Below, one piece after another: positions 7,387 to 22,489 of a DNA stretch of 33,232 nucleotides. Numbering within the stretch: the stretch's first letter is position 1; each line of letters begins with the position of its first letter. This stretch comes from Acidimicrobiales bacterium. Its GTDB lineage: Bacteria; Actinomycetota; Acidimicrobiia; Acidimicrobiales; Acidimicrobilacustridaceae. The position numbers and the translations under genes were made by a program. Location of the stretch: the NCBI GenBank assembly GCA_026419545.1, contig JANZZE010000011.1, forward strand, positions 1 to 33,232. Direction: 5' to 3'. The notes below the pieces were generated by a model. The model had not been told where the DNA came from and did no database searches. It worked only from the letters and a program-made list of their open reading frames with translations.

Positions 7387-8025
7387 TCAACCAGCCAGCG
7401 ATACCACCAAGCCCAGCTGGCCGAGGTGGTAGGTGATGATGATCGCCAGGCGTGCCCAGGCCTTCGGAGCAACAAAGCGATCCCAGGCGATGAGCGCGTC
7501 CGATGCATAAAAGAGGCACGCCCCGACGATTGCTGCGACGTGGCGCCTACCGAAGGCTGAGGCCACCATGACGGATATGACACCGATGTAGCACGCGACC
7601 GGCAGGGCCAATTGCGGTTTCGTTTCCTTGACCCCTCGGTAGAGCCGGCGGCCCAGGGCGAGCACCGCCACAGCGACCAACGCCATACCCGCGGCGAGCC
7701 AACCCGCGCTGACACCAACTACCCACATCCCGGCTATGTAGCCGATATGGGCAAGCAGGAAGGATCCGAGCCCGAAGACGAACAGACTCTCCCTCGGCAA
7801 CATCAAGAGCACATCACCCACCAGCGACAAAACGAGCGCTGGGACGAACAGGTTGCGAACGGTGACGTCGGAAACGTCGAGGGCGAACGCCGCGGCGATC
7901 AGCACGACCATCGTCAACGGCTTGCAGACGTATTCGAGCTTCTTGTTCCCAAGCGCAACGGCTACCCAGTCGCACACCGCGACGGCCAGCGTCAGTCCCA
8001 GCCAAAGCGAAGCTGTTGCGTTCAC
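7387..8025 (-). CDS. YhhN family integral membrane protein (lysoplasmalogenase-like)
   Basis: YhhN/TMEM86 proteins include lysoplasmalogenases, which cleave the vinyl-ether bond of lysoplasmalogens. The 212-residue sequence is almost entirely membrane segments (about eight) and carries the family's conserved polar spots: CKPLTMVVL, LSLVGDVLLMLP, HIGYIAG, FYASDALIAWDRF and YHLGQ near the C-terminus. Start: GTG 8025 overlaps the stop of the upstream Nudix gene as GTGA, a classic coupled start; an in-frame GTG at 8034 would add three residues. It is the last gene of the ferredoxin-reductase-Nudix-YhhN chain. Whether the enzyme activity is present cannot be read from sequence alone. Confidence 0.85.
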   Translation of the reverse strand: MNATASLWLGLTLAVAVCDWVAVALGNKKLEYVCKPLTMVVLIAAAFALDVSDVTVRNLFVPALVLSLVGDVLLMLPRESLFVFGLGSFLLAHIGYIAGMWVVGVSAGWLAAGMALVAVAVLALGRRLYRGVKETKPQLALPVACYIGVISVMVASAFGRRHVAAIVGACLFYASDALIAWDRFVAPKAWARLAIIITYHLGQLGLVVSLAG

Positions 8026-8522
8026 GGCGCGCACTGGGTGAGCGCGCGAAGGACGATTTCGACGCTGTCAGGGACCACCCGCCGCCGTTGCAACCATCGG
8101 CCGATCGATTCGTATGGCACCCATTCCGTGGCAACGACCTCGCCGTCGGTGAACTCGAACGGCCCTTCGCTCACCGTCCGGAACACCGCGCCGATCTCGC
8201 GAACGCTGTCGTCCTCATAGGTGCCCATGCCCAGGAATTCGAGTTCTCCGGACTCGATACCGGCCTCTTCAGCCAGCTCTCGGCGGGCTGCATGTTCGTA
8301 GGTCTCACCCACCGCCAGCACGCCACCGAAGGCGATATCCCAGTAGCTGGGCCACACGTCCTTCCAGGCGGCTCGCTGATGCGTGAGCAGGCAGCCACGG
8401 CGGTCGAACACGACGACGAAGACCGTGCGATGGCGCAGGTTCTCAGCTCGCATGCGGAGTCGGGTCACGACCGAAACGACAACGTCCTCATCGTCGATGA
8501 CCTCGACCAGCTCGTCGTTCAT
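8022..8522 (-). CDS. Nudix hydrolase (YfcD/Idi-like)
   Basis: Nudix enzymes hydrolyse nucleoside diphosphates linked to another group, using Mg2+. The 166-residue protein has a perfect Nudix box: GVLAVGE, seven residues, then RELAEEAGI, matching G-x5-E-x7-REU-x-EE-x-GU. The region before it (RTVFVVVFDRRGCLLTHQR, then PSYWDIAFGG) resembles the YfcD and isopentenyl-diphosphate isomerase type 1 branch; the substrate is unknown. ATG 8522 overlaps the reductase stop as ATGA, and the C-terminus overlaps the next gene as GTGA, so translation is coupled on both sides. A longer open frame to 8561 would run into the reductase coding region and lacks support. Confidence 0.9.
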   Translation of the reverse strand: MNDELVEVIDDEDVVVSVVTRLRMRAENLRHRTVFVVVFDRRGCLLTHQRAAWKDVWPSYWDIAFGGVLAVGETYEHAARRELAEEAGIESGELEFLGMGTYEDDSVREIGAVFRTVSEGPFEFTDGEVVATEWVPYESIGRWLQRRRVVPDSVEIVLRALTQCAP

Positions 8523-9757
8523 GACACCAACGCCCGGGCTCGAGCCAGACCGGCATCCCAAGCCTCACCCTCCTCGACGAGTACACGAAGTTGCATGACG
8601 TGACGAGGTCGATTCATGCCAAGCACCCCGACAACTCGATCCTCTCTTCCGAACAGGGCGACGAATCGGCGCTCATCGAGCGATCCCTCCACGATCTCGA
8701 TCGCATCGTCGGGTCGGCAGGTGCCAGCGAGTTGGATCTTGCGGTCGTATTGGTCAGACCAAAACCAAGGAACTGGGTCGTAGGCTTCCCCGCCTGCACC
8801 AGACTCCGGTGCGACCATGAGAGTACGGGCCGCGTGCTCTGCCGACTGGATGGCGTTCTCCCAGTGCTCGACCCGCATCGACCCACCGAAGCGAGCCGAC
8901 GGCCAGCGCGCGAGATCTCCTACGGCGACGACACCAGGAGCGGCCCTGAGCCTGTCGTCCACCACAACCCCATCATTGAGGTCGAGGCCAGACCCCGCGA
9001 GCCATCCCGTATTTGGTGTGACACCGATGCCGACAACAACGACGTCACATGGCACAAGCGACCCATCCGAGAGCCGCACTCCTGTCACCCTTTGATCGCC
9101 TCCCTCGCCGCTGGTTTCAAAGCCCGCAAACCCGACACCGAGCCTGAGATCGACTCCGTGATCACGATGGAGATCTGCAAGCACGGTCCCCAACGCGGAA
9201 CCCAGCACGCGCTCAAGGGGCGTCGCGAGTGCTTCGACCAGTGTGACCGATAGACCTCGGGCACGGCAGGTTGCTGCAACCTCGGACCCGATGAAACCCG
9301 CCCCGATCACCACGACCCTCGACGGCGAAGCATCGAGCTCAGCCCGCAATACGAGACAGTCCTGGAGCGTCCGCAACACGTGCACTCCGCTCAGGTCACC
9401 CATGCCTGGCAGGACCCTGGGCGTGGCACCAGTGGCAAGGATCAAACCGTCGAACCCGACGCGCTGTCCGTCACCGAGCCCAACCATGCGATCCGCCAGA
9501 TCAAGTCCCACCGCGTGACCGGTTTTCCACTCGAGGTCGAGTTCGGCGAGCCGTTCCGGACGGGCGGCTGGCAGCACAATTCGGTCAGGTTCCCAATCAC
9601 CCGCCAAGACCTGCTTGGAGAGAGGAGGGCGGTCATACGGCGTCACCGATTCCGCCTCGATGACGATGATTCGACCTCCGAAGCCCTCGCTGCGCAAGGT
9701 CTCGGCAGCGGTGAGGCCGCCGAGCGACCCCCCAACGATGGCGACCGTACCGAGCAC
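8519..9757 (-). CDS. FAD-dependent ferredoxin reductase (rhodocoxin/putidaredoxin reductase type)
   Basis: Moves electrons from NAD(P)H through FAD to a small ferredoxin that feeds an oxygenase. The 412-residue protein has an N-terminal FAD Rossmann motif (TVAIVGGSLGGLTAAETLR), YDRPPLSKQVLAG, the ATGATPR signature, a second NAD(P) Rossmann motif (VVVIGAGFIGSEVAA, about residues 145-160), a late FAD motif (VVAVGDLARWPS) and the reductase C-terminal domain (VEHWENAIQSAEHAARTL, PWFWSDQYDRKIQLAG). Start: GTG 9757, ten bases after the ferredoxin stop, gives the normal family length; the frame extends to 9859 only by running through the ferredoxin gene. No cytochrome P450 is in the window; the KshA-like oxygenase at 13093 is a possible client. 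Confidence 0.9.
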   Translation of the reverse strand: MLGTVAIVGGSLGGLTAAETLRSEGFGGRIIVIEAESVTPYDRPPLSKQVLAGDWEPDRIVLPAARPERLAELDLEWKTGHAVGLDLADRMVGLGDGQRVGFDGLILATGATPRVLPGMGDLSGVHVLRTLQDCLVLRAELDASPSRVVVIGAGFIGSEVAATCRARGLSVTLVEALATPLERVLGSALGTVLADLHRDHGVDLRLGVGFAGFETSGEGGDQRVTGVRLSDGSLVPCDVVVVGIGVTPNTGWLAGSGLDLNDGVVVDDRLRAAPGVVAVGDLARWPSARFGGSMRVEHWENAIQSAEHAARTLMVAPESGAGGEAYDPVPWFWSDQYDRKIQLAGTCRPDDAIEIVEGSLDERRFVALFGREDRVVGVLGMNRPRHVMQLRVLVEEGEAWDAGLARARALVS

Positions 9758-9767
9758 TTTCAGCGCA

Positions 9768-9962
9768 TCAGTCCTCGGCGATGGAGATCGCCTGTTTCGG
9801 GCAACGCCGCACCGCCTCCTCAATCTTGGGGCGAAGCTCCTCCGGCGGGTGCTCGTCAAGGATGTACAGGAAGTCGTCGTCGCGCACCTCGAACACCTCG
9901 GGAGCGATACCCATACACACCGCGTTGCTTTCGCACAGGTCGAAGTCGACCACTACTCGCAT
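9768..9962 (-). CDS. Small [3Fe-4S]-type ferredoxin (P450-associated family)
   Basis: A 64-residue ferredoxin starting MRVVVDFDLCESNAVC. Three cysteines are in cluster positions: Cys10, Cys16 and Cys54 (RRCPKQAI). The site where a fourth ligand would sit in the first loop is Asn13 (CESNAVC). In mycobacterial and streptomycete P450-linked ferredoxins such a non-cysteine residue goes with a 3Fe-4S cluster, so that type is inferred. The start ATG has a strong GGAGG seven bases upstream. The reductase gene follows after ten bases, so this is an electron-transfer pair. Its promoter region, shared with the divergent CoA-transferase gene, holds two copies of a palindromic operator motif. Confidence 0.93.
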   Translation of the reverse strand: MRVVVDFDLCESNAVCMGIAPEVFEVRDDDFLYILDEHPPEELRPKIEEAVRRCPKQAISIAED

Positions 9963-10062: not shown

Positions 10063-10079
10063 CGCCCCACTTGCCAGAC

Positions 10080-10102
10080 AAATCTGATGGGGTGTCAGAT
10101 AT
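10080..10102 (+). promoter_or_regulatory. Operator-like palindrome, site B, abutting the CoA-transferase start
   Basis: AAAT-CTGAT-GGGGT-GTCAG-ATAT, an imperfect 23-base palindrome ending four bases before ATG 10107. Read towards its gene it matches the site before the NIPSNAP-like gene almost base for base in both arms. There is no Shine-Dalgarno sequence between it and the ATG, so the mRNA may be leaderless with the operator over the promoter. Confidence 0.6.
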
Positions 10103-10106
10103 AGCC

Positions 10107-11345
10107 ATGAAACCCACCGCACCCTTGGCTGGCGTCCGCATCATCGAGTGCTCCCTGCTCGGACCGGCCGCCATCACCACCCACCTCGCCGATCTCGGCG
10201 CCGAGGTGATCAAGATCGAATCCCCCTCAGGTGACTACGTCCGGGAAATGACCTGGCCCATCGTCCAAGGGGTGTCGCTGATGCACCTGCACGTCAACCG
10301 AGGCAAACGCTCGGTTGTCCTCGACCTGAAAAACGACGAAGGCAAGCAGGTGTTCCGCGAGCTAGTGGCGACCGCCGACGCGGTCGTCGAAGCGATGCGT
10401 CCGGGAGTCCTGGACAAGCTCGGACTGGGCTTCGAAGCGTTACGCCAGATCAACCCGACCCTCGTGTTCATCACGATTTCCGGTTACGGCATGACCGGTC
10501 CGTATCGCAACCTCCCGAGCCATGGCATCGCATATGACACCTGGGCTGGCATCGTGACGCCTGCCTACGATGACGAGGGATTCTGCTACCTGCCAGAACA
10601 CGTATCGATCGGCATCAACGCTGGACCGCTCTACGGTGCCCTCGGACTGCTCGCTGGCATCGTGCATGCTCGGGCCACCGGCGAAGGCTGCCAGCTCGAG
10701 ATCGCCCAGTCAGACGCGGCCGCGGCCTTTGACTGGTACCGGTCCGAGACCTGGAAGGCATACGAGCGACCCGAGGATGAAGTCACCGGCAACAAGGCAG
10801 ACAACTACGAGCGCCGGGCGCCGGGCATCGCGGGGATGCGGGACGGCGTGCGATATCAGCTCTACGAGAGCGCCGATGGTCACGTGCTGTTCATGGCGTC
10901 GGAGCAGGTCTTCTGGCGCAACTTTTGCGAAGGGGTGGGCCGCATGGACCTGTTCGAGCGGTGGCCTGGCAGCACCTATGCCGACCATGCACGCGGCAAC
11001 CGTGAGCTCCAAGCCGAACTCCGTGAGATCTTCCGGACTCGGACCTCGGCAGAGTGGATCGAGTTCGCGAACGAACACAACACGACGATTGCACCCGTCA
11101 ACACACCGAGAACGATCGCTCAAGACCCGCAGTTCGTGGATCGGCTGGGCTGGATCGGGGCTGACCGCCTTGGTGCCGATGAGTTGCCCTTCCCGGTCAA
11201 GGTGGTGGGCGGTAAACTTCCTGAACCCACGCGAGCACCGAGTCTGGGCGAACACACCGACGAAGTACTGCGGGCCGTGCTCGACAAGACCGACGACGAC
11301 CTGGCGAAGCTGCGCTCGGCCGGAGCCTTCGGGCGACCCGACTGA
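10107..11345 (+). CDS. CaiB/BaiF family (class III) CoA-transferase
   Basis: Class III CoA-transferases move CoA between carboxylic acids, often activating carnitine, bile acids, oxalate or aromatic acids. The 412-residue protein has typical N-terminal features (PLAGVRIIECSLLGP, LADLGAEVIKIESPSGDYVR), VNRGKRSVVLDLKNDEGK, RPGVLDKLGLGFEALRQINP, the ITISGYGMTGPYRN motif, and HARATGEGCQLEI before the small domain. Around the usual catalytic aspartate (GD.xxG in formyl-CoA transferase and CaiB) the sequence reads VSIGINAGPLYG, with no aspartate visible in place. ATG 10107 is preferred to the longer TTG 10071 start because the latter would translate the operator. The gene is divergent from the ferredoxin operon and convergent with the NIPSNAP-like gene; substrate unknown. 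Confidence 0.9.
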   Translation: MKPTAPLAGVRIIECSLLGPAAITTHLADLGAEVIKIESPSGDYVREMTWPIVQGVSLMHLHVNRGKRSVVLDLKNDEGKQVFRELVATADAVVEAMRPGVLDKLGLGFEALRQINPTLVFITISGYGMTGPYRNLPSHGIAYDTWAGIVTPAYDDEGFCYLPEHVSIGINAGPLYGALGLLAGIVHARATGEGCQLEIAQSDAAAAFDWYRSETWKAYERPEDEVTGNKADNYERRAPGIAGMRDGVRYQLYESADGHVLFMASEQVFWRNFCEGVGRMDLFERWPGSTYADHARGNRELQAELREIFRTRTSAEWIEFANEHNTTIAPVNTPRTIAQDPQFVDRLGWIGADRLGADELPFPVKVVGGKLPEPTRAPSLGEHTDEVLRAVLDKTDDDLAKLRSAGAFGRPD

Positions 11346-12201: not shown

Positions 12202-12230
12202 TTCCGAAAAATTAGAACCTGTTCTATACT
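12202..12230 (+). promoter_or_regulatory. KstR-like operator over a leaderless promoter
   Basis: TAGAAC-CT-GTTCTA at 12213-12226 is a perfect palindrome of the KstR operator type (core AACNNGTT). Its last two bases begin TATACT (12225-12230), a good -10 box, six bases before ATG 12237. TTCCGA (12202-12207) at 17 bases spacing is a plausible -35. There is no Shine-Dalgarno sequence, so the mRNA is expected to be leaderless. The regulator itself is not in the window; KstR identity is inferred from the mycobacterial consensus. Confidence 0.7.
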
Positions 12231-12236
12231 CGCCGC

Positions 12237-13100
12237 ATGGGCATGCCCACCGACCTCGGCATCATCGACCTGATGATGGGTATCCCCGATGGGGATCGTG
12301 ACCACTGGTATCAGTTCCTCAAGCCTCAGCTTCGCGATGCAGAGAGCCGCGACGAGTTCGAGTTCCCGGCCCAATACATGTTCAAGGAAGTGCCCGAGGA
12401 TCCCGACGTCGACGACCCGGTGAAATGGGTGCTCGAGCAGATGGATCGGTTCGGTATCGAGAAAGCCATGATTGGCATCGGCGGTGAACAGGGCAGAGCG
12501 CTGAAAGAACACCCCGACCGCTTTATCCCGTCGACCAGTGTCGATCCCAACCGTGGGATGGACGCCGTTCGTGATCTCGTGCGCGACTACGAGACCTGGG
12601 GGGTCAAGAGCGCCCAGTGGTTCCCTGCAGGATGCAACCCCCAGGTTCCGATCGACGACAAGCGCGCCTATCCGATCTACGCCAAATGCATCGAGCTCGA
12701 CATCCCGATCTTCGTCTGCGTCGGTGTTCCCGGTCCTCGGGTGCCGATGGCGTGCCAGCACGTCGAACTGATCGACGAAGTCTGTTGGTTCTTCCCTGAG
12801 CTCAAGTTCGTCATTCGGCATGGTGCGGAGCCATGGACCGATCTCGCGGTGAAGCTCATGCTCAAGTGGCCAAACCTGTACTACTCGACATCCGCCTTCG
12901 CTCCCCGGTATTACCCCAAGGCGATCATCGATTTCGCCAATACTCGAGGCGCCGACAAGATCATGTACGCGGGCTACTTCCCCATGGGCTTGAGCCTTGA
13001 TCGCATCTTCTCTGAATTGCCGACAGTTCCATTCAGCGAAGACGTCTGGCCCAAGTTCTTGCGAGACAACGCACGAAAGGTCCTGAAGCTCGATGACTGA
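12237..13100 (+). CDS. Amidohydrolase-fold (Amidohydro_2) protein with degenerate metal site, copy 1
   Basis: A 287-residue TIM-barrel protein of the Amidohydro_2/ACMSD decarboxylase superfamily, seen from the C-terminal barrel pattern FPELKFVIRHGAEPW, LMLKWPNLYYSTSAFAP, NTRGADKIMYAGYFPMG. Of the usual ligands only His195 (RHGAEPW) is visible. The N-terminal DxHxH site reads IIDLMMG, the middle histidine region reads FVCVGVPGP, and the final GSDxP aspartate site reads YAGYFP. It is therefore probably not a normal metal hydrolase. It is closely similar along its whole length to the protein at 21590. The start is ATG 12237, six bases after a -10 box. The end overlaps the KshA-like Rieske gene by eight bases (ATGACTGA), so the two proteins are co-translated. 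A steroid or terpenoid role is inferred from context only. Confidence 0.82.
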   Translation: MGMPTDLGIIDLMMGIPDGDRDHWYQFLKPQLRDAESRDEFEFPAQYMFKEVPEDPDVDDPVKWVLEQMDRFGIEKAMIGIGGEQGRALKEHPDRFIPSTSVDPNRGMDAVRDLVRDYETWGVKSAQWFPAGCNPQVPIDDKRAYPIYAKCIELDIPIFVCVGVPGPRVPMACQHVELIDEVCWFFPELKFVIRHGAEPWTDLAVKLMLKWPNLYYSTSAFAPRYYPKAIIDFANTRGADKIMYAGYFPMGLSLDRIFSELPTVPFSEDVWPKFLRDNARKVLKLDD

Positions 13101-14220
13101 TCTCCTACGCCCTGCATCGACCAGCTCGGGGAACGTCCTCGACCAGGTCGTTCCCCAACCGAACGAACCGCGCTATCCGTTCGGCATCCCCTACGGCTGG
13201 TTCCAGGTCGCCTGGTCGTATGAACTCGAACCTGGCGCTGTCATTCCCCGCTACTACTTCGGACGCCACCTGGTGCTGTGGCGCGACCAAGACGGTGTTC
13301 CCCACCTCAACGACGCGTTCTGCCCCCATCTCGGAGGGCACTTCGGCTACGGCGGCAAGGTGGTGAATCGCTGCCAGTTGCAATGCCCGTTCCACGGCTG
13401 GGAGTTCGACTCCGATGGCAACAACACGCGGATCCCCTACAGCGATCGTGTCAACAACAAGGCGAGGGTTCGTGCATACCCAGTGCGCGAGATCGCCGAT
13501 CACCTGATCGTTGCCTGGTACCACCCCTATGACGAACCGCCGTTGTTCGAGCTCGAGATCCCGCCAGAAGTGGATGACGACAACTACACCGACTGGACCG
13601 ATGTGCACTTCTCGGTGGCGGCGGCAGCCCAAGAACTCGCGGAGAACTCGGTCGACGGGCCGCATTTCCGGTATGTACACAACACCGAGGTCGTACCGGA
13701 GATCGAGTCATATGAGACCGAAGGACATATCGCTCGAATGCGGTCGGTCCAGAAGTTCCCAACCCCCCGTGGTGTCGTCGACGGGCGAATCGACGTGGAC
13801 AATCAAGGACCGGGATTCGGCGTGACCAGATTCTCGGGCATCGTCGACACATTCCTAATCGGCGCGGCCACTCCAGTCGACGCGAACCGTTGCGAGGTGC
13901 GATTCAACTTCAAGACAAAGAAACTCGCAGATGCTAAGGCCACGAGCACTGTCGGCGAGGCGTTCGTCCGAGAGGTCTCCAAACAATTCGAAGAAGACCG
14001 GCCGATCTGGGAGAACAAGGCGCACCTGCGGCGCCCCGCCCTCGCGGACACCGACCCGCCGTTCATGAAGTTCCGAAAGTGGTACGCACAGTTCTACGCT
14101 GAACCAGCCAATGGTGAGCATGATGTGTGGGCGCCACCACGCCCCGATGTGGAATTCCAGCCCTCGTTCACTCCCCCAGACGACCTGACGGCTTCGCGCA
14201 AGTACCGCACATCGGATTGA
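13093..14220 (+). CDS. Rieske non-heme iron oxygenase, alpha subunit, KshA-like
   Basis: Rieske oxygenases insert oxygen using a [2Fe-2S] cluster and a mononuclear iron; KshA is the 9-alpha-hydroxylase of 3-ketosteroids. The 375-residue protein has Rieske ligands Cys77-x-His79 (AFCPHLGGHFG) and Cys98-x2-His101 (QLQCPFHGWEFD). The iron motif is ENSVDGPHFRYVHN, giving His191 and His196 after Asp188. A later EEDRPIWENK segment carries the probable third ligand (Asp302). Length and a C-terminal KFRKWYAQFYAE are as in KshA-type proteins, but overall it may be a different steroid or terpenoid oxygenase. It overlaps the upstream amidohydrolase-fold gene by eight bases and should share its KstR-like promoter. 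It needs an external reductase; the ferredoxin/reductase pair at 8519-9962 is a candidate partner. Confidence 0.88.
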   Translation: MTDLLRPASTSSGNVLDQVVPQPNEPRYPFGIPYGWFQVAWSYELEPGAVIPRYYFGRHLVLWRDQDGVPHLNDAFCPHLGGHFGYGGKVVNRCQLQCPFHGWEFDSDGNNTRIPYSDRVNNKARVRAYPVREIADHLIVAWYHPYDEPPLFELEIPPEVDDDNYTDWTDVHFSVAAAAQELAENSVDGPHFRYVHNTEVVPEIESYETEGHIARMRSVQKFPTPRGVVDGRIDVDNQGPGFGVTRFSGIVDTFLIGAATPVDANRCEVRFNFKTKKLADAKATSTVGEAFVREVSKQFEEDRPIWENKAHLRRPALADTDPPFMKFRKWYAQFYAEPANGEHDVWAPPRPDVEFQPSFTPPDDLTASRKYRTSD

Positions 14221-14259
14221 GGTCTGCAGGGTTCGCACCAACCGAACCGTATTGCGGCC

Positions 14260-14279
14260 CGGCGACCGCCTGGTCGCCG
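14260..14279. terminator. Strong hairpin between convergent genes
   Basis: CGGCGACC-GCCT-GGTCGCCG, a perfect 8-bp GC-rich stem with a 4-base loop, 40 bases after the Rieske stop and 31 bases from the stop of the convergent membrane protein gene. Position fits a bidirectional terminator; a T-tract is lacking on both sides. Confidence 0.5.
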
Positions 14280-14309
14280 CATTCTGCAAGTCCCCCCGTG
14301 TTGTCGGCG

Positions 14310-15728
14310 TCAGAGCGCGTTCGTACGGCGCAGGCGCTGAAATGGGAAAGCTCCAACGACTAGCGGCACCCAGAACGTCAACGAACGCCACACCAAGACT
14401 GCAACGACAGCAGTCCCCACCGCCACACCCGCGATGAGCAAACCGAGCACCGCGGTGCACTCGACGGCGCCTACACCGCCCGGCGTGGGAACAAGTGCTG
14501 CTGCGAGCATGGAGACCAGCGCGATCACCGCGATCCGCCAGAAGGACAGCTCTCCACCAACGGTCGCGACTGAAGCGCCGAACGCGACGACATGAGCCAA
14601 GGGCAGCGCAACTGCCGCGACACCAAGCCCCGCGCCACCTGAGCCGGTGAGCAGCGAACGAAGCCCATCGAACGACGGCTTGACCGTCAGGTAACGGATG
14701 CGGTCGGCTGCCCGGGATACTCCCAACAGCAAAAAGAGGCAGACCGCGGCGAGAAGGTAGGGCCACCGCTTCGGTAGATCGACATGGGGAAGGTGGCGGA
14801 GATCGGCTTGCAGCACAGCGACAACGCTGACCGTGACGAACCCGAACACGCCGATGAGTTGGCGCCCGCCCTCTGCGCGTAACACGGCGGACACCTCACC
14901 ATGAGCTCGTTTCGCGAGAAAGTGAGCCTCCAAGCCAAGCGGACCGAGCGGGGGGAGAAGTCGACTGGCGAAGTTGGAGGCAGCGGTCACCTCCAAAGCG
15001 TCGATCAGGCGGACCTGGGCCGGAGCGCTGAGGGCGAGCTGGGCCGCCGCGATCAGGTGACCCGCGAAGATTGCGGCCACCACCACGGCGACAAACGGCC
15101 AACGCAGACCGCTCGACACGACATCGACCTGCTGGCTGCCGGCCAACCAGACCAGCCCCGCCGCGCTCAGCACGCCAACGCCAAGGAGCAACCCCAGATC
15201 GAGACGCTCGAACGGCGGCAACACTCGACCAAGCTGCCTTTGGTCGAGCTGGGGCGGCGGACGCAGGTACATGCCCGGTGCGTCGGGAGGAGGGGCGCGC
15301 AGCAGAGACTCAAAGCGTGGCGCACGTCGATAGGCGATGCGGTCGTCAATCAGTCCCACCACTGCGCCGAGCAGCCCCAAACCGACAAACGCCGCAAACG
15401 CAATTGCCGCTCGCTGCATCTGGGGAACAGCCCGCTCCCGACACGTCGGTTGCAGAGATCGCCGAGTCGCCTCCGGTGATTCCCCAGGCGTCGCTTTCAG
15501 GTCCGGCCGGTTGAACACCACGAACCCGATGGCTGTACCACAGTCCTGGACGCCCGGGTTCCGAAGTGGAGTAAACGCCAACCACGCCGCAGCTACCAGG
15601 GCGACCAGCGAGCCGACCAACAACGTCTTGGCCATCGCCCACGGGATGCTGCTCGGTTCACGCGACCCCCGTCTTTGCAAGGACGAGGACGGCGAGGCTG
15701 GTGGCGATGCGATCTGCGACACGGTCAT
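14310..15728 (-). CDS. Lysylphosphatidylglycerol synthase TM-region/UPF0104 family membrane protein
   Basis: A 472-residue multi-pass membrane protein of the family named after the membrane half of MprF (PF03706); related proteins act as lipid flippases. The N-terminus has an early membrane segment (TLLVGSLVALVAAAWLAFTP), a soluble stretch of about 50 residues with two cysteines, and a second segment. The UPF0104 core starts near residue 190 and includes the conserved FASRLLPPLGPLGLEAHFLAKRAHGEVS and PTPGGVGAVECTAVLGLL loops. No synthetase domain is attached, so it does not make lysyl-lipid itself. ATG 15728 overlaps the stop of the PI-PLC-like gene as ATGA; the longer frame to 15944 lies inside that gene and is rejected. 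Lipid handling is inferred from both the family and the partner gene. Confidence 0.8.
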   Translation of the reverse strand: MTVSQIASPPASPSSSLQRRGSREPSSIPWAMAKTLLVGSLVALVAAAWLAFTPLRNPGVQDCGTAIGFVVFNRPDLKATPGESPEATRRSLQPTCRERAVPQMQRAAIAFAAFVGLGLLGAVVGLIDDRIAYRRAPRFESLLRAPPPDAPGMYLRPPPQLDQRQLGRVLPPFERLDLGLLLGVGVLSAAGLVWLAGSQQVDVVSSGLRWPFVAVVVAAIFAGHLIAAAQLALSAPAQVRLIDALEVTAASNFASRLLPPLGPLGLEAHFLAKRAHGEVSAVLRAEGGRQLIGVFGFVTVSVVAVLQADLRHLPHVDLPKRWPYLLAAVCLFLLLGVSRAADRIRYLTVKPSFDGLRSLLTGSGGAGLGVAAVALPLAHVVAFGASVATVGGELSFWRIAVIALVSMLAAALVPTPGGVGAVECTAVLGLLIAGVAVGTAVVAVLVWRSLTFWVPLVVGAFPFQRLRRTNAL

Positions 15729-16954
15729 CCGGTGAACGACGGCGCGGCACCGACCGGTAGCGGAAGTTGCCTGAGGGCCGGAGGATCGGGATCCGGAGGC
15801 AGGTTTTCGATCGCCGTGTTCAGGCACGCGGGTGGAGCATTCACCGGGTTGCAACGCGCCGGCGTCCCGCCCGGAATCGCGGCAACATAGTCGGAACCCC
15901 AACGGGCCGAGTATCCCGGCACGGGATAGTCCGTGCTGACCCACTGCGCACCGCTCCGAAGCGCAGCATCGCGCTGACTGACGTCACCTGCTAGCACCGT
16001 GACCACCGGCGTGTCAGCTCTCGTCCTCACCACATAGCCAGCCGCCACCAACTGCCGGATCGCTTCTTCGTTCGGGCCGAGCGGATCGTTCATCTTGATG
16101 AACGCAGCGTCGGGCTCACCGGGGCTTGCAGGGGTGAACGCCACCCGGCCTTCAAGTGATGGGCGGCCGGCCCGGTACTCGTCCCGCTTGTTGTCGAGCA
16201 GGAACATCACCTGGCCTCGTACGTCGTCGATCAGCGGCCACCCATCGGTCAAGATGGCGTCCTCGAGTGTGAGGTGCGAGCCCCGCACGTCATCAGGTGT
16301 CAACAAACGGCTTTCAGGGAATTGGCTGCGAATCTCCGCGTCAAGCGCATCCAGCTCGATGGGGCCCACCGGCAACGGATCAGGAGGGCCAGGCAGATCG
16401 ACGTTGTCCTTGACTTCGATCAGGATCGCGATCGGCATGTGATCCGGATGTGCATCGGACCAGGCTCTCACTACCGCCAGGCAATCGACAAAGACCTCGC
16501 AATTCGAGCGCTCGTCGAATCCTTCGATGTGGAACACCTTGTAGCCCGGCCGCCCGAGCGGCCGCCACAAGCTGCCAGCAGGATCGGCGTAGACATCCAG
16601 TTCGATCTGGCGCACCCCTTCCCGGCTGAACTGGTGATCCAGCGGCGGGTGGGAATAGGCAAGTTGAATCGCCTGGGGGTCAATCCCCAACAGAATCTGC
16701 AGCAGATCGGGCGGCGGCTCGATGTGGTAGCTGTTGTGCGTTCCGATCACCTGCATCTGATTGAGCCGGATACCGGATGCCGGAGACGCGCCACTAGTCG
16801 CAGCCGAAGCGACGCGTTGGCTGACCGACGGGGCGAGACCCCAATTGATCGCCGCGACCACAGCGAGCACGACCGCTACCAATACCTTCCGCCGACGTAG
16901 CTTGCGGGAACTCTGCGAGGGAGTCAGTGGTGGGGTTGGAGCGGTCAAGGACAC
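15725..16954 (-). CDS. Secreted Ca2+-dependent PI-PLC-like phosphodiesterase
   Basis: A 409-residue exported protein of the PLC-like phosphodiesterase (TIM-barrel) superfamily, closest by motif to the bacterial Ca2+-dependent phosphoinositide PLC group (PI-PLC-C1). A basic N-terminus (SSRKLRRRK) and hydrophobic segment (VLVAVVLAVVAAINWGLAP) form a signal peptide or anchor. The catalytic region starts LNQMQVIGTHNSYHIEP (His73), then VRQIELDVYADPAG supplies the E-x-D metal ligands, and VFHIEGFDERSNC supplies the second histidine. The C-terminus holds AQWVSTDYPVPG, the usual last strand. GTG 16954 with GGAGGT at six bases fixes the start. The substrate may be a phosphoinositol lipid, which actinomycetes make, but that is inference. 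The gene overlaps the UPF0104 gene downstream. Confidence 0.85.
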   Translation of the reverse strand: MSLTAPTPPLTPSQSSRKLRRRKVLVAVVLAVVAAINWGLAPSVSQRVASAATSGASPASGIRLNQMQVIGTHNSYHIEPPPDLLQILLGIDPQAIQLAYSHPPLDHQFSREGVRQIELDVYADPAGSLWRPLGRPGYKVFHIEGFDERSNCEVFVDCLAVVRAWSDAHPDHMPIAILIEVKDNVDLPGPPDPLPVGPIELDALDAEIRSQFPESRLLTPDDVRGSHLTLEDAILTDGWPLIDDVRGQVMFLLDNKRDEYRAGRPSLEGRVAFTPASPGEPDAAFIKMNDPLGPNEEAIRQLVAAGYVVRTRADTPVVTVLAGDVSQRDAALRSGAQWVSTDYPVPGYSARWGSDYVAAIPGGTPARCNPVNAPPACLNTAIENLPPDPDPPALRQLPLPVGAAPSFTG

Positions 16955-16960
16955 GGGAGC

Positions 16961-16966
16961 ACCTCC
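16961..16966 (-). promoter_or_regulatory. Ribosome binding site of the PI-PLC-like gene
   Basis: GGAGGT on the minus strand, six bases before GTG 16954. It removes the 35 upstream in-frame residues from the protein and leaves a clean signal peptide. Confidence 0.75.
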
Positions 16967-17124
16967 ACGAGAGCAGTCAGGCAAAAGTCTGGCGTACCAC
17001 GGAGGCTCGGGGCACAGCGAGACCTTCCGCCAAAGTGGGATGGAATGTGCAAGAGCCACACATCACGACACGATGGCCACCATGGCCTCCTCGCACCAGG
17101 TCGCCCAATCGCGCGCCGATCCCC

Positions 17125-17186
17125 CAGAGCACCGTCACCCCACGATCGCCAGCTGACCAGAGCACCGTCACCCCACGATCGCCGGC
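17125..17186. repeat. Two-copy tandem duplication (period 33) at the acyltransferase gene end
   Basis: A 29-base unit at 17125-17153 recurs at 17158-17186 with one difference (CCAGC versus CCGGC). The copy at 17158 contains the last codons and stop of the acyltransferase gene (AIVG, stop); the other copy lies just after it and repeats the same codons and stop. It looks like a recent slippage duplication with no coding effect. Confidence 0.85.
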
Positions 17187-18595
17187 TTGATCTGGGACCG
17201 CTCTGCGAGCTCGGCGATCGCCTCGCCTATCGCCCGGGTGATCGCATGGGAATCCGCAACGGCGTCACGGCACGCCAATACCCCGACATTGAGCTGGTCG
17301 AGGTAACTCCAGACCGTGATGTTGAGGCCGATCCCTTCGAGCACCGGTCCCACCGAATAGATGCTGAGCAGCCGGGCGCCTCCGACGAACAGCGGTTCGC
17401 GCGGACCTGGAACGTTCGACACCACGACGTTGATCGGCGGCGGGAACTGGTCGGCAATTCGGAGCCGCGACCACAGCCGAACAGCAAAGCTGTACGGCTT
17501 CGGCGGCGTGTACTGCACCCAGTCGTGCATCATCTCGACGCCGAGCAGATTGTGCAGGACCCTGGCCTCTGCCGTCACCTCGTGAATGATCTGTAACCGG
17601 CGGACTGGATCGGGCTCGTCCGTCGCAAGCGTCGTGAAGAGATTCGATACCCTATTGCCGCCGAGCCGGCGAATCTCGTCGGGACGATCGGTCGAGACAG
17701 GTACACCGGCAACCAGCGATCGATCCGGGAGCTCACCGCGATCGATCAGGTATCGGCGTAGCGCGCCGCCAACCACCGCGAGCACCACGTCGTTGACGGT
17801 CACCCCGAAAGCTCGACGAATCTTGCGTACCTCTTCGAGACTGAACGTTGCGGTGGCGAACGACCGGCGCGGCGTCAACGCGCGATTGAACGAGGTCCGG
17901 GGAGTATCGAGAACAGGACGGGGTGGCGTGACCGACATCGTCCGGCGGTGACGCACGACGTCTGCGAGGTTGTGAAGGGTTCGCCACACCAAAGCGGGGA
18001 GCTTCCCGATGAGCCGGGCTTGATCACGTAGCGCCTCAACCACCAGACGACGTCTCGTCGGCAACTCCTCGGGATACCAACGTGGTGGACCGGCGGGAAC
18101 TGATTCCCCAAGCTCCTCCGGCGTCGTGCTCATCACGTTCGCGAGAAGCGCAGCGGCGGCCATCCCGTCAACCACGGCATGGTGGATCTTCACCAGGACT
18201 GCGAGCTTCGATCCCTCGAACCCGTCTATCAGATACAACTCCCACAAGGGCCGCCGCCGATCGAGGGGACGGCCCGCGATGTCGGCGACCACCTCGTCGA
18301 GTTGGCCTCGATCACCGACTACGGGGAGCTTCACCCGGCGCACGTGGTAGTCGATGTCGAAATCAGGGTCCTCGACCCACACCGGATGATTGAGGCCGAG
18401 CGGGACTTCGACCACCCGGCGACGGAACGGTGGGAGGAGGTGGAGCCGGTCGGCGATCTGCTGGCGGAACCATGCGAGCGGCAGGTCCGACTGACCCGGT
18501 GCTGTTTCCAGCACCGCCAGCTTCAATGTATGCATCAGGAGAGTGGGAGTCTCCATGTACAGGAACCCGGCATCGAGCCCGCTCAACCGCTCCAT
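17168..18595 (-). CDS. Wax ester synthase/diacylglycerol acyltransferase (WS/DGAT), copy 1
   Basis: WS/DGAT enzymes esterify fatty alcohols or diacylglycerol with acyl-CoA to make storage wax or triacylglycerol, working at the membrane and lipid-body surface. The 475-residue protein begins MERLSGLDAGFLYMETPT and has the catalytic HHxxxDG motif (His138, His139, Asp143 in KIHHAVVDG), the PLWELYLIDG motif before it, the NDVVLAVVGGALRRYL motif and the C-terminal VVSNVPGPREPLFVGGARL. Start: ATG 18595 gives the same length as the second copy; the open frame to 18679 is unlike the family. GATACT (18603-18608, minus strand) stands seven bases before the ATG, so a leaderless promoter is likely. The upstream interval is shared with the divergent serine hydrolase. 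The gene end is tandemly duplicated. Confidence 0.93.
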   Translation of the reverse strand: MERLSGLDAGFLYMETPTLLMHTLKLAVLETAPGQSDLPLAWFRQQIADRLHLLPPFRRRVVEVPLGLNHPVWVEDPDFDIDYHVRRVKLPVVGDRGQLDEVVADIAGRPLDRRRPLWELYLIDGFEGSKLAVLVKIHHAVVDGMAAAALLANVMSTTPEELGESVPAGPPRWYPEELPTRRRLVVEALRDQARLIGKLPALVWRTLHNLADVVRHRRTMSVTPPRPVLDTPRTSFNRALTPRRSFATATFSLEEVRKIRRAFGVTVNDVVLAVVGGALRRYLIDRGELPDRSLVAGVPVSTDRPDEIRRLGGNRVSNLFTTLATDEPDPVRRLQIIHEVTAEARVLHNLLGVEMMHDWVQYTPPKPYSFAVRLWSRLRIADQFPPPINVVVSNVPGPREPLFVGGARLLSIYSVGPVLEGIGLNITVWSYLDQLNVGVLACRDAVADSHAITRAIGEAIAELAERSQIKPAIVG

Positions 18596-18724
18596 AGGAA
18601 CGAGTATCGCACCGACAACGGAGGAAACGCCGTTGCGAAGATGACCCGGCGTCACGTTCGCGCGCTCCCCCAAAGGCAAGATGTTCCCCTGCCTTCGCCG
18701 ACCGACCCGTTACACACTCAAGAT

Positions 18725-18746
18725 GGGCTCCGAACCGAAGGAGCCC
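18725..18746. promoter_or_regulatory. Inverted repeat in a divergent promoter region
   Basis: GGGCTCC, eight bases, GGAGCCC: perfect 7-bp arms about 40 bases before the serine hydrolase start and 130 bases upstream of the acyltransferase. It could be an operator for either gene or an RNA hairpin; the sequence does not decide. Confidence 0.35.
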
Positions 18747-18785
18747 TCCTCTCCGTGAATCGGTCACCGCCTTTGTAGGAGTAGC

Positions 18786-19982
18786 GTGCCTCCCGTGGCA
18801 GCTGATGACAGCAATCGCGACGCCTACGAGGTCACAGATCCGGTCACGCTCGGCCTCGTCCCTGAACGCTTGGATGCGCTCATCGATCGAGCACGGCGTG
18901 AAATCGATGAAGGCCTGTTACCCTCGTGCCAACTGGCGGTGGCCCGCCAGGGTCGACTCGCCCTCTTCGAAACACTGGGCGACGCAGCCCACTCGAGTCG
19001 CTACACGATCTTCTCCTGTACCAAGGGACTCGTGGCTGGCGCGATCTGGATCCTGTTGCGATCCGGTGATCTCTCGCTCGATGTTCGAGTCGCCGAACTC
19101 GTGCCGGAGTTCGGCACCAATGGCAAAGAAGTCATCACTGTCGAACAGCTGCTGACCCACACCGCCGGATTCCCAACGGCACCGATGAGCGCGACTGTCG
19201 CCGCAAGTCGTGAAGGACGTCTCGCTCAATTCGCGAAATGGCGGCTCAACTGGGAGCCGGGCAGCCGGTTCGAATATCACCCGACCTCTGCTCACTGGGT
19301 TCTCGGGGAGCTGATCGAACGGGTCACTGGCGAGGACTTCCGAGCCTTCATCGTCGACCAAGTCGCACGACGGCACGGTCTCACCCGGTTCGGTCTCGGG
19401 GTAGGACCCGGCGAGCAGGACGACATCAACGACCTCTGCCTCGTCGGTCAGCACCCGACACGCGAAGCTATCGAAGCCGTTTTGGGCTTCCCTCTCGATC
19501 TCGCCGAGCTGATGGGAGAGGTGACCGACGAAGCGCTGCTGAGCTTCAACCAACCCGAGGTGCGAGCCGTCGGTTTTCCTGGTGGGGGTGGCGTCGCGAC
19601 AGCAGCGGACCTGGCTCTCTATTACCAGTCGGTCCTACATGATCCATTCGACATCTGGAGCCCCGAGCGTCTCAGCTGGGCCACCCAGGTGCGCTGCGAT
19701 CTTCCTGATCCGCTGCGCGGGGTTCCTGCCCACCGAAGCCTTGGCCTGGTAGTGGCGGGCCACCCACCAGACGCTCAGCTGCGAGGGTTCGGTTATGGTC
19801 TGTCGCCGCGCAGTTTCGGACACGACGGCGCAGGCGGTCAGATTGCCTGGTGCGATCCCGTGAGCGGCGTTTCGTTCGCGTACCTGACGAATGGTCGCGA
19901 TCTCGACATCTTGCGCGAAGCGCGCCGCACCATCGGTCTCTCCAGCCGGGCGGCCGTCGTGGCCGATCCAACCTCAGGGTGA
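18786..19982 (+). CDS. Serine hydrolase of the beta-lactamase class C/EstB family
   Basis: A 398-residue penicillin-binding-fold hydrolase, most likely an esterase or lipase rather than a beta-lactamase. The nucleophile motif SxxK is Ser77-Cys-Thr-Lys80 (TIFSCTKG). Further family marks are LLTHTAGFP, the tyrosine region FEYHPTSAHWVLGELIERVTG (Tyr164), FPGGGGVATAADLALYYQ, and the late HDGAGG motif in place of KTG. No signal peptide is visible, so it should be cytoplasmic. GTG 18786 follows AGGAG at four bases; GTG 18795 is an alternative. It lies between two WS/DGAT genes, divergent from one and followed after 102 bases by the other, so turnover of esters or storage lipid is a reasonable guess. 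Confidence 0.88.
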   Translation: MPPVAADDSNRDAYEVTDPVTLGLVPERLDALIDRARREIDEGLLPSCQLAVARQGRLALFETLGDAAHSSRYTIFSCTKGLVAGAIWILLRSGDLSLDVRVAELVPEFGTNGKEVITVEQLLTHTAGFPTAPMSATVAASREGRLAQFAKWRLNWEPGSRFEYHPTSAHWVLGELIERVTGEDFRAFIVDQVARRHGLTRFGLGVGPGEQDDINDLCLVGQHPTREAIEAVLGFPLDLAELMGEVTDEALLSFNQPEVRAVGFPGGGGVATAADLALYYQSVLHDPFDIWSPERLSWATQVRCDLPDPLRGVPAHRSLGLVVAGHPPDAQLRGFGYGLSPRSFGHDGAGGQIAWCDPVSGVSFAYLTNGRDLDILREARRTIGLSSRAAVVADPTSG

Positions 19983-20084
19983 ATGGATTGAGCATGTCAT
20001 CGGCTCCTCGGCTGGCACGACAAGCCCGGGAACACCCAACCCAGCAACAACCCCGCTTGAACAACGAATAGAGGGAGACCGCCA

Positions 20085-21512
20085 ATGCAACGGCTCAGCG
20101 GGATGGACGCATCGTTCCTCTATATGGAGACGCCAACCCACCACATGCACGTGTGCGGGACGCTGTTGCTCGACCCGTCCACCATGAAGGATGGCTATTC
20201 CTTCGATCGGTTCAAGGAACTGATCAGAGCACGTCTCCACCTCATGCCCATGCTTCGCCGCCGCGTGCTCATGGTTCCATTGAACATCGACCATCCGGTC
20301 TGGATCGAGGATCCTGATTTCAATCTCGACCGTCATATACACCGATTGACGGTGCACCCGCCGGGCACCCCGCACGAACTCGCCGATGTCGTCGGCGACA
20401 TCGCCTCCCGACCCCTCGATCGATCGCTACCACTGTGGGAGATGAACGTCGTCGAAGGACTCGAGGACGGGGCCGTCGCGCTCGTCACCAAAATGCACCA
20501 TGCGTGTATCGACGGGATCACCGGTGCCGACATGATGTCCCATCTCCTCGACCTCGAACCTGATACACCATCGGTGCCTCCCCCAGCTGACGAATGGGTG
20601 CCCGACGCGGTGCCGTCGGACGTCGCACTCTGCGCCGACGCGCTCGTCTCACGAGCCAAGGATCCGCTGCGGACCGTGCGGGCGCTCAGTCGCACGGGAC
20701 GGTCCCTCATCGAGATGGGGCGCCAGGTGATCGGAATCGGCACGGACCAGCGACTGCGCCCGGCTCTTCCGTTCACCGGGCCCCGGACCCTTTTCAATGC
20801 CCCGATAACAGCGAATCGGGTGGTTGCGTTCGGTCAAGCGCGACTTGACGACCTGAAACTGATCAAGAACACCTTTGCCACCACCGTGAACGACGTGGTC
20901 TTGGCCGCGTCGGCGATGACACTACGCAGGTATCTGTTGCATCACGACGACCTCCCCGACCGACCGCTGATCGCCGCGGTGCCAGTCTCAGTGCATGGCA
21001 AGACCGAACATGGCGGGACAAACCAGGTATCCAACATGTTCGTCCGCCTGCCGGTCGATACCGATGACCCGGTGGAACAACTTCTGCGCATCCACGAGGA
21101 AACCAAGGATGCCAAGGCGGTCCACAATGCCATGGGCGCCGACCTCATCCAGGACATGGCGCTCATCGCGCCGCCGGGCATCTACAACCTCGCGCTACGG
21201 CTCTATGCACTCCCACAAGTGTCGGCGACCCTGCCGCCAGTCCAGAACGTCGTCATCTCCAACGTCCCGGGACCGCCCATACCGCTCTACATCGCGGGTG
21301 CCCGTGTGAAAGGCATATACCCGTTTGGACCGCTGATCGAAGGCTCCGGCGTCAACATTACCGTGCTGTCGAACATGGGCAACATGGACTTCGGTGTCAT
21401 TGCGTGCGGAGACACCGTGCCCGACGTATGGCAGATCGCCGATGGTTTCAGTGCAGCCGTCCTCGAGCTTCGCGCCGCCGCGAAATCACAAACGGCGCCA
21501 ACGGAACGCTGA
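20085..21512 (+). CDS. Wax ester synthase/diacylglycerol acyltransferase (WS/DGAT), copy 2
   Basis: A 475-residue paralogue of the acyltransferase at 17168-18595, with the same ends and motif spacing: MQRLSGMDASFLYMETPTHH, PLWEMNVVEG, catalytic His138, His139 and Asp143 in KMHHACIDG, then NDVVLAASAMTLRRYL and VISNVPGPPIPLYIAGARV. Differences in the central linker (about 165-215) and in the strand after the start suggest different acyl acceptors, though this cannot be read directly. A GGGAG seven bases before ATG 20085 is a good ribosome binding site, unlike copy 1, which looks leaderless. It follows the serine hydrolase on the same strand and precedes the KstR-like promoter at 21565. Triacylglycerol or wax storage is the likely role. 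Confidence 0.94.
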   Translation: MQRLSGMDASFLYMETPTHHMHVCGTLLLDPSTMKDGYSFDRFKELIRARLHLMPMLRRRVLMVPLNIDHPVWIEDPDFNLDRHIHRLTVHPPGTPHELADVVGDIASRPLDRSLPLWEMNVVEGLEDGAVALVTKMHHACIDGITGADMMSHLLDLEPDTPSVPPPADEWVPDAVPSDVALCADALVSRAKDPLRTVRALSRTGRSLIEMGRQVIGIGTDQRLRPALPFTGPRTLFNAPITANRVVAFGQARLDDLKLIKNTFATTVNDVVLAASAMTLRRYLLHHDDLPDRPLIAAVPVSVHGKTEHGGTNQVSNMFVRLPVDTDDPVEQLLRIHEETKDAKAVHNAMGADLIQDMALIAPPGIYNLALRLYALPQVSATLPPVQNVVISNVPGPPIPLYIAGARVKGIYPFGPLIEGSGVNITVLSNMGNMDFGVIACGDTVPDVWQIADGFSAAVLELRAAAKSQTAPTER

Positions 21513-21564
21513 ACCGCCACGCCCCAGAACCTTTCCCCACCGACTAAACCGCGGCCCGACTCAT

Positions 21565-21582
21565 TAGAACACGTTCTAGAAT
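21565..21582 (+). promoter_or_regulatory. KstR-like operator over a leaderless promoter, second copy
   Basis: TAGAAC-AC-GTTCTA at 21565-21578 is a perfect 14-base palindrome identical in arms to the one at 12213 and equal to the mycobacterial KstR consensus form. It overlaps TAGAAT (21577-21582), a TANNNT -10 box seven bases before ATG 21590. The same geometry before the paralogous gene at 12237 supports joint control by one repressor. Confidence 0.72.
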
Positions 21583-21589
21583 GGGCAGA

Positions 21590-22489
21590 ATGGCCGACCA
21601 GGACTCCGCCACCATGACCCCATTCGCAGGCATACGGATCATTGACACGATGGTCGGGTTCCCGAAGCGTGACCGGCGGGAAGTGTACAAGTTTCTCGCA
21701 CCGCACCTTCGTGATCGAGAGAGCAGGGAGGAGTTCTCCTTCCCGGCCCAGTACATGTTCAAAGACCTTCCTCCCGAAGTCGAGGACAACGTCGATCCGG
21801 TTGCGGTGGTTCTCGACAACATGGACCGTTTCGGTGTGGAACGGGCCATGGTGGGCGTGCGCAAAGACAGAGAGGACGCCATCCGAGCGCTGCGCGAACA
21901 CCCAGATCGTTTCATCGCCTCTGTCGAGATCGACCCGTCAGGGGGGATGGACGCAGTTCGCTACCTGGTCGAGATGTTCGAGACCTACGACGTGAAAGCG
22001 GTGACGACCTTCCCTGCGGGCTACCAGGTTCCGATCAACGACAAGCGCTACTACCCGATCTATGCAAAGTGCGTCGAACTCGACCTCCCGATCTTCGTGT
22101 GCGTTGGTGTGCCAGGCCCACGGGTGCCCCTTGCACCCCAGAAAGTCGAGTTGATCGACGAGGTCTGCTGGTTCTTCCCCGAGTTGAAATTGGTCATGCG
22201 ACACGGGGCCGAGCCGTGGACTGAGCTCGCGGTCAAGCTCATGCTCAAGTGGCCGAACCTGTACTACTCGACCTCCGCCTTCGCCCCGAAGCATTACCCG
22301 AAGCCGATCATCGACTATGCGAACACTCGGGGCGCGGACAAGGTTATCTACGCCGGCTATTTCCCAGCGGGGTTGACCTACGATCGCATCTGGGGCGACA
22401 TGCCCGGTGTCCCATTCGCTGAACATGTCTGGCCGAAGTTCTTGCGCGAGAACGCCATGCGTGTCCTGGGTCTCGACACCGACGATTGA
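21590..22489 (+). CDS. Amidohydrolase-fold (Amidohydro_2) protein with degenerate metal site, copy 2
   Basis: A 299-residue paralogue of the protein at 12237. Shared stretches include FPAQYMFK, DKRxYPIYAKCxELDxPIFV, VELIDEVCWFFPELK, RHGAEPWT, LMLKWPNLYYSTSAFAP and NTRGADKxxYAGYFP. As in copy 1, the N-terminal metal site DxHxH reads IIDTMVG, the middle site reads FVCVGVPGP, and the GSDxP aspartate is lost (YAGYFP); only the RHGAEPW histidine remains. Because both copies keep the same losses, these are conserved features of the group rather than decay. ATG 21590 is chosen over ATG 21581 because the latter lies inside the -10 box. The stop overlaps the start of the copper gene as TGATG. Its metabolic partner is not in the same operon, unlike copy 1. 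Confidence 0.82.
   Translation: MADQDSATMTPFAGIRIIDTMVGFPKRDRREVYKFLAPHLRDRESREEFSFPAQYMFKDLPPEVEDNVDPVAVVLDNMDRFGVERAMVGVRKDREDAIRALREHPDRFIASVEIDPSGGMDAVRYLVEMFETYDVKAVTTFPAGYQVPINDKRYYPIYAKCVELDLPIFVCVGVPGPRVPLAPQKVELIDEVCWFFPELKLVMRHGAEPWTELAVKLMLKWPNLYYSTSAFAPKHYPKPIIDYANTRGADKVIYAGYFPAGLTYDRIWGDMPGVPFAEHVWPKFLRENAMRVLGLDTDD

Follow-up and report, generated by a model that had tools for sequence, protein, structure and literature searches.

Proteins of the Pfam family PF04909 (Amidohydro_2) are labelled 'amidohydrolase family protein' and are taken for metal hydrolases. In ACMSD, the metal is held by two histidines on strand 1, one histidine on strand 5, and one aspartate on strand 8, and a histidine on strand 6 is the catalytic acid/base. 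LigI is a metal-independent member of the amidohydrolase superfamily and thus a precedent for metal-free catalysis; LigI and the COG3618 lactonases keep the histidine and aspartate residues of the site. We analyzed a 33,232-nt stretch (the window) of contig JANZZE010000011.1 from an Acidimicrobiales bacterium (assembly GCA_026419545.1). It encodes two PF04909 proteins, here called A and B, in which the ligands of the ACMSD-type site are replaced and the strand-6 histidine is retained. We tentatively favor the reading that A and B are metal-free PF04909-fold enzymes acting on a coenzyme A (CoA)-activated steroid-like or isoprenoid side chain under KstR-type control, most likely as C-C lyases. 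The fold, ligand loss, conservation, operators, and gene order behind this reading were obtained by computation. The two genes and their operators are listed below.

12213..12226, no strand: KstR-type operator TAGAACCTGTTCTA upstream of A, an exact KstR palindrome
12237..13100, + strand: protein A, 287 amino acids, a PF04909 protein without metal ligands, from the Rieske-linked clade (Pfam E 3.6e-24)
21565..21578, no strand: KstR-type operator TAGAACACGTTCTA upstream of B, an exact KstR palindrome
21581..22489, + strand: protein B, 302 amino acids, a metal-ligand-free PF04909 paralogue of a separate ancient clade

A and B are 69% identical across 284 residues, and both open reading frames (ORFs) are intact. 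Both matched PF04909 (E ~3e-24, ~86 bits; curated cut-off 26.4), and neither matched an NCBIfam model. A preliminary description of the window had placed B at 21590-22489. The end was correct, but the ORF opens at 21581, 2 nt past the operator, with alternative ATGs at 21590 and 21614. The nonsynonymous (dN) and synonymous (dS) substitution rates between A and B were 0.25 and 1.18 (ratio ~0.21), suggesting that both are under strong purifying selection. The intact ORFs, the dN/dS ratio, and the invariant residues described below ruled out degenerating pseudogenes.

We modeled B, starting from the ATG at 21614, with AlphaFold2 and the 63-sequence alignment A2. The mean predicted local distance difference test score (pLDDT) was 91.6 and the predicted template modeling score (pTM) was 0.90. 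In a Foldseek search of the PDB, 3IRS was the top match, followed by LigW/LigW2, LigJ, gamma-resorcylate decarboxylase, and ACMSD, with template modeling (TM) scores of 0.72 to 3IRS and ~0.6 to LigW, gamma-resorcylate decarboxylase, and ACMSD. The family of A and B is predicted from the model to be a distorted (beta/alpha)8 barrel. The amidohydrolase fold that had been proposed for the pair is thus borne out by the PF04909 match, the pLDDT, and the Foldseek neighbors. The suggested comparison with ACMSD and gamma-resorcylate decarboxylase gave the same fold, and the ligand positions were judged by alignment.

The alignment contained 110 family members from 79 sources (78 loci of the genome collection and the window); residue numbers such as H208 and Y260 are those of protein B. 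In A and B, the DxHxH site reads IIDLMMG and IIDTMVG, respectively, the middle-histidine site FVCVGVPGPR, and the final-aspartate site AGYFP, and the retained histidine is in RHGAEPW; the replacements first quoted for these sites are all present. Across the family, strand 1 reads I-[DE]-[LT]-[MF]-x-[GN], and histidine is not among the commonest residues either there or at the middle-histidine position. The strand-5 site [VA]-G-[VI]-P-G-P-R replaces the histidine ligand, and its G, G, P, and R were found in 110/110 members. On strand 6, the R, H, P, and W of R-H-G-x-E-P-W were likewise invariant (110/110). Strand 8 reads A-G-Y-[FY]-P, and 109 of the 110 members have Y260 where the aspartate ligand is expected. 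H208, R181, and R207 were each present in 110/110. A scan of conserved residue types found H208 as the sole conserved histidine and no conserved histidine or cysteine cluster. The nearly or fully invariant residues were D/E22, K61, R181, R207, E211, K219, K223, N248, R250, and Y260. In the profile alignment, H208 fell on the HGG histidine of LigJ (strand 6), and Y260 on the aspartate ligand of LigW.

By alignment, all four protein ligands of the ACMSD-type mononuclear site are gone, and the surviving H208 falls at the acid/base position. Since the strand-6 histidine of ACMSD is the acid/base and H208 aligns with a strand-6 histidine, the survivor is probably the catalytic histidine. The preliminary description had counted four of five ligands as lost. 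The loss was confirmed, but the count should read all four ACMSD-type protein ligands, with the survivor at the acid/base position. Its single remaining histidine was also recovered, and other histidines are unlikely to supply the ligands, as only one is conserved among the 110 members. The ligand loss is more general than the pair and family-wide. Judged from sequence, the family does not qualify as metal-dependent amidohydrolases, and is better described as putative PF04909-fold enzymes with a retained catalytic histidine. A search of the literature for PF04909 enzymes that work without metal returned nothing relevant.

The origin of the loss was examined with related PF04909 groups. In Acidimicrobiia, a clear gap in score sets the family apart: full-length members scored 373-544 bits and the next PF04909 group at most ~180. 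In several of the next groups, the DxHxH site and the middle histidine are gone and the strand-8 aspartate is kept (e.g., ASDYP, ATDYP); one group has lost the strand-8 aspartate too, and the distant groups L118 and L119 have the full canonical ligand set. The sister groups L112-L120 thus show a graded ligand loss, with most of them keeping the strand-8 aspartate. Relatives of 3IRS in Methylobacterium and Cupriavidus read I[IV]DFR[IL]RPP, GG[NT]AGPD, and AS[AS]FP and keep the strand-6 histidine. In a tree with the next PF04909 groups as outgroups, the phylogeny that had been called for, the family was monophyletic (100/99) and A and B fell into different clades, A grouping with L044, L007, L052, and L059. 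The two clades occur together in the window genome and in L007; a single contig (L003/L052) and a single metagenome-assembled genome (MAG; L005/L044) likewise hold both. Since the ligand state of the sister groups is graded, the loss is ancestral to the whole family, and partly to a wider GxPGP clade that includes the 3IRS group, rather than a joint event in A and B. A recent shared loss in two local copies was ruled out because the family and its sister groups share the losses. The idea that a shared loss in two copies marks a stable role thus held for the strong conservation, but not for the loss as an event of this pair.

Some further observations concern the members sampled. Tandem trios of three diverged metal-free paralogues occur in Acidimicrobiia MAGs (L046, L050, L040, L034, L060, L073, L068, L030, L056, and L061), and L047 has a similar paralogue set near a thiolase and an apparent ChsH2-type gene. 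Seven loci titled Bifidobacterium breve (L013, L015, L024, L032, L049, L051, and L068) group with Acidimicrobiia and are apparently mislabelled MAGs. The class-level sample from another alphaproteobacterium obtained 8 of 289 genomes.

KstR is a lipid/cholesterol repressor with the 14-bp palindrome TAGAAC(N2)GTTCTA (PMC1995591). In the TnnAACnnGTTnnA palindrome test of the KstR regulon, the promoters of both genes had an exact TAGAACNNGTTCTA. The claim of the same operator for both copies is therefore correct, as exact 14-bp palindromes lie at 12213-12226 and 21565-21578. The 3.07-Mb host genome has three exact palindromes, against 0.04 expected, and two of them are the operators of A and B. 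Of the 82 leading family genes, 24 had an upstream box with at most one mismatch, compared with 18 of the 752 other ORFs (Fisher p 2e-15, an optimistic value since related sequences are non-independent). In Myxococcota, the box is at about -91, beside a divergent acyl-CoA dehydrogenase. Other host boxes flank FadD/FadE, short-chain dehydrogenase/reductase (SDR), luciferase-like monooxygenase (LLM)/TetR, and canonical PF04909 genes. On host contig C323 (L099, 1465-2229), a TetR gene (C323:1543) is divergent from an LLM gene, with a near-exact box between them at C323:1465. Against the PDB, this TetR protein had no clear KstR match and matched TetR proteins mainly in the helix-turn-helix region. 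The protein is a candidate regulator that is not clearly KstR. On host contig C223 (L097), a near-KstR box, TAGAACCGGTTCTC, at locus position 7414 is flanked by two divergent PF04909-like genes.

The genes around A and B include the following.

8519..9859, - strand: ferredoxin-type NAD reductase (Pyr_redox_2 and Reductase_C), with a homologue in 19 loci
10071..11345, + strand: CoA-transferase family III, CaiB type (PF02515, E 2e-79), a conserved neighbor, in the same order in L111
13093..14220, + strand: Rieske oxygenase with a KshA_C domain (PF19298, E 8e-35; PF00355, E 2e-16)
20085..21512, + strand: WS/DGAT acyltransferase (TIGR02946) directly upstream of B, a conserved neighbor, in the same order in L111, L006, L004, and L003

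The Rieske gene starts within A, with an overlap of 8 nt. Its product has intact Rieske CxH/CxxH and HFxxVH motifs and is the only PF19298 match in the host genome. A Rieske homologue was found in 21 other loci, in about ten of them directly downstream of the family gene. Across phyla, these amidohydrolase-linked Rieske proteins share 37-46% identity among themselves, against ~29-31% with structurally solved KshA. The reductase is a possible electron donor for the Rieske protein. A homologue of the window's CoA transferase was found in 32 loci. Counted by neighbor type, CoA transferases were present in 31 loci, acyl-CoA dehydrogenases in 58, and FadD in 21. Genome G038, from the same family as the host, repeats the order CoA transferase, box-A-Rieske, PF03706, PLC-like, WS/DGAT, and box-B. 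The survey of Rieske neighborhoods that had been proposed supports a link with a Rieske oxygenase; a tie to steroid-type regulation is supported as well.

Three further observations were made in the window. The PI-PLC-C1 gene (15725-17059) and the LPG-synthase-TM gene (14310-15944) are kept between A and B in L007 and L111 for no obvious reason. Two 31-nt direct repeats, 97% identical and spaced by 33 nt, lie at 17124-17187 near a WS/DGAT 3' end. A separate NIPSNAP partner was dismissed, as it occurs only in the window among the loci.

Family genes with 52-57% identity are carried by Novosphingobium and Sphingobium plasmids, in the order CoA ligase-amidohydrolase-(SDR)-Rieske-amidase and in clusters with steroid annotations. 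The ortholog of N. aromaticivorans is SARO_RS18870. For the CoA ligase, the NCBIfam model ranked second was that of steroid-24-oyl-CoA synthetase, with a score short of the model's cut-off. The order in Sphingobium TomTYG65 is CoA ligase-amidohydrolase-Rieske-amidase-x-x-x-x-acd-fadE30. The published tags of strain Chol11 give SclA as Nov2c230, a monooxygenase as 228, Bsa as 227, Scd4B as 222, and Scd4A as 221 (PMC8399759 Table 1, PMC12175502). The Chol11 cluster Nov2c230-221, ordered by these locus tags, is collinear with that of TomTYG65, with equal step counts. Since Nov2c229 is the leftover tag in the matching order, it is predicted to belong to the metal-free PF04909 family. The window has no SclA or Bsa gene next to A. 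Published work on Chol11 found no Shy1, Sal1, Sad, or Sal2 homologues, called side-chain removal largely unknown, and proposed that side-chain degradation depends on a hydroxylation made by Nov2c228. By this analogy, proteins of the A/B family are good candidates for the missing bile-salt side-chain enzyme. In a related cluster of Caenibius tardaugens, EGO55_16305, labelled 'amidohydrolase', is induced 21-fold on cholate; the bile-salt literature reads the amidohydrolase of the cluster as a deconjugating hydrolase (PMC12882949). If the family supplies the gene beside SclA and the Rieske gene in the Chol11 cluster, the deconjugating reading probably does not apply to it.

We infer the catalysis, the substrate, and a retro-aldol step as follows. 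For A and the homologues in sphingomonads, which are of the Rieske-linked type, the side chain would first be activated by the CoA ligase, an acyl-CoA dehydrogenase would introduce the alpha,beta-double bond (delta22-24-oyl-CoA), and the KshA-like Rieske enzyme would hydroxylate a tertiary carbon (C17 or C20). The C17 hydroxyl would then be deprotonated and C17-C20 broken by a vinylogous retro-aldol reaction, in which the charge would pass to the thioester through C22=C23, so that a 17-ketosteroid and a C5 enoyl-CoA would arise in a single step. Such a reaction would require an acid/base and an oxyanion site and no metal, which fits the invariant His/Tyr/Arg set. The barrel residues that might take part are His208 (the acid/base), Tyr260 (where the aspartate ligand is expected), Arg181, Arg207, Glu211, and Lys61. 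The proposed retro-aldol step would explain the need for both hydroxylation and an acyl-CoA dehydrogenase. Hydroxylated steroids build up in the Chol11 sclA and scd4A mutants (PMC12175502), which agrees with a cleavage that depends on hydroxylation as well as on a CoA-bound double bond. Lyase activity is also supported by the high-confidence barrel, which is nearest to lyases, decarboxylases, and hydratases.

Several points weigh against this proposal. No full-length KstD was found in the 91%-complete host genome, only Rossmann-fold fragments, and a classical steroid diet or ring use is therefore doubtful in the host. A ChsH2-type protein and a thiolase are encoded on the same host contig as box-linked genes, and the known retro-aldolase route may also exist in the host. 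Many loci, including the tandem trios and B, have no adjacent Rieske gene. Moreover, the identity of Nov2c229 comes from collinearity and not from its sequence. The most specific form of the proposal, which we regard as unlikely, makes the family a novel class of retro-aldolases that have the amidohydrolase fold but need no metal. They would take off the complete C5 side chain of 17-hydroxy-delta22-steroid-24-oyl-CoA by a single vinylogous retro-aldol step, and the family would be Nov2c229, the missing enzyme of sphingomonad bile-salt side-chain degradation, with homologues in Acidimicrobiia and Myxococcota.

Among the alternatives, the one that survives best is compatible with the lyase reading and concerns only the substrate, which might be another polycyclic or isoprenoid acid undergoing the same type of chemistry. 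The failure to find a full-length KstD and the lipid-gene neighbors (WS/DGAT, CoA transferase) point this way, but the KstR-type operator, the KshA-type Rieske protein, and the steroid annotations of the sphingomonad clusters make it a minor possibility. Two other explanations are somewhat weaker and similar in standing. The proteins might be metal-independent hydrolases that open a lactone or ester made by a pathway flavin monooxygenase. LigI sets a precedent in the superfamily, and LLM-type flavin monooxygenases are frequent neighbors (cluster 4, 19 loci), one of them sharing its box with the host TetR gene. However, LigI keeps histidine and aspartate residues where the A/B family keeps the strand-6 histidine alone, and the sphingomonad gene order suggests a step after CoA activation, so that hydrolysis is improbable. 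It is equally doubtful that they are pseudoenzymes that bind steroid-CoA or serve the Rieske oxygenase, or else an acyl-CoA enzyme, as a chaperone or scaffold. Every ligand position is lost, A and the Rieske gene overlap translationally, and non-catalytic partners have a precedent in such pathways, ChsH2-Ltp2. On the other hand, the segments that form the barrel mouth hold a cluster of invariant residues (His, Arg, Lys, Glu, and Tyr), and many loci lack a neighboring Rieske gene. The preliminary description had offered a metal-independent enzyme, a CoA-ester or steroid binder, or an oxygenase partner. Because the His/Arg/Lys/Tyr/Glu set is invariant, an enzyme is favored over pure binding, and a dedicated oxygenase partner is unlikely since most loci have no adjacent Rieske gene and tandem trios occur. 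A metalloenzyme with a new ligand set of carboxylates and a single histidine (e.g., D22, H208, and E211) would fit the near invariance of D/E22 and E211, but is very unlikely given one conserved histidine, no His/Cys cluster, and Y260 for aspartate in 109/110.

If the family is the gene beside SclA in the Chol11 cluster, it would also be a clear case of a fold that shed its metal site and yet kept one catalytic histidine. Its function is now testable in cultured sphingomonads and bears on how bile-salt side chains are removed.

Among known proteins, the best match to the A/B family in both sequence and structure is BB4693 (3IRS/3K4W), an uncharacterized TIM barrel from Bordetella bronchiseptica. 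Relatives of 3IRS likewise lack the DxHxH site (IIDFRIRPP), the middle histidine (GGNAGPD), and the final aspartate, and keep the strand-6 histidine. However, 3IRS and the family are 22% identical in the structural alignment, and its relatives lack the N-terminal FPAQYMFK, RHGxEPW, GVPGPR, and AGYFP motifs of the family; one of them has genes for fumarate hydratase and a dicarboxylate transporter as neighbors. ACMSD, gamma-resorcylate decarboxylase, LigW, and LigJ (PF04909, COG2159) have the fold and the Pfam family in common with A and B, but this group keeps the four metal-ligand positions that are all replaced in the A/B family. LigI and the COG3618 lactonases are outside the nearest structural matches. 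The Rieske partner of A has the Rieske and KshA_C domains of KshA (3-ketosteroid 9alpha-hydroxylase), but is closer to the other amidohydrolase-linked Rieske proteins. Finally, the 14-bp palindrome of the mycobacterial KstR regulon is identical to the host operators.

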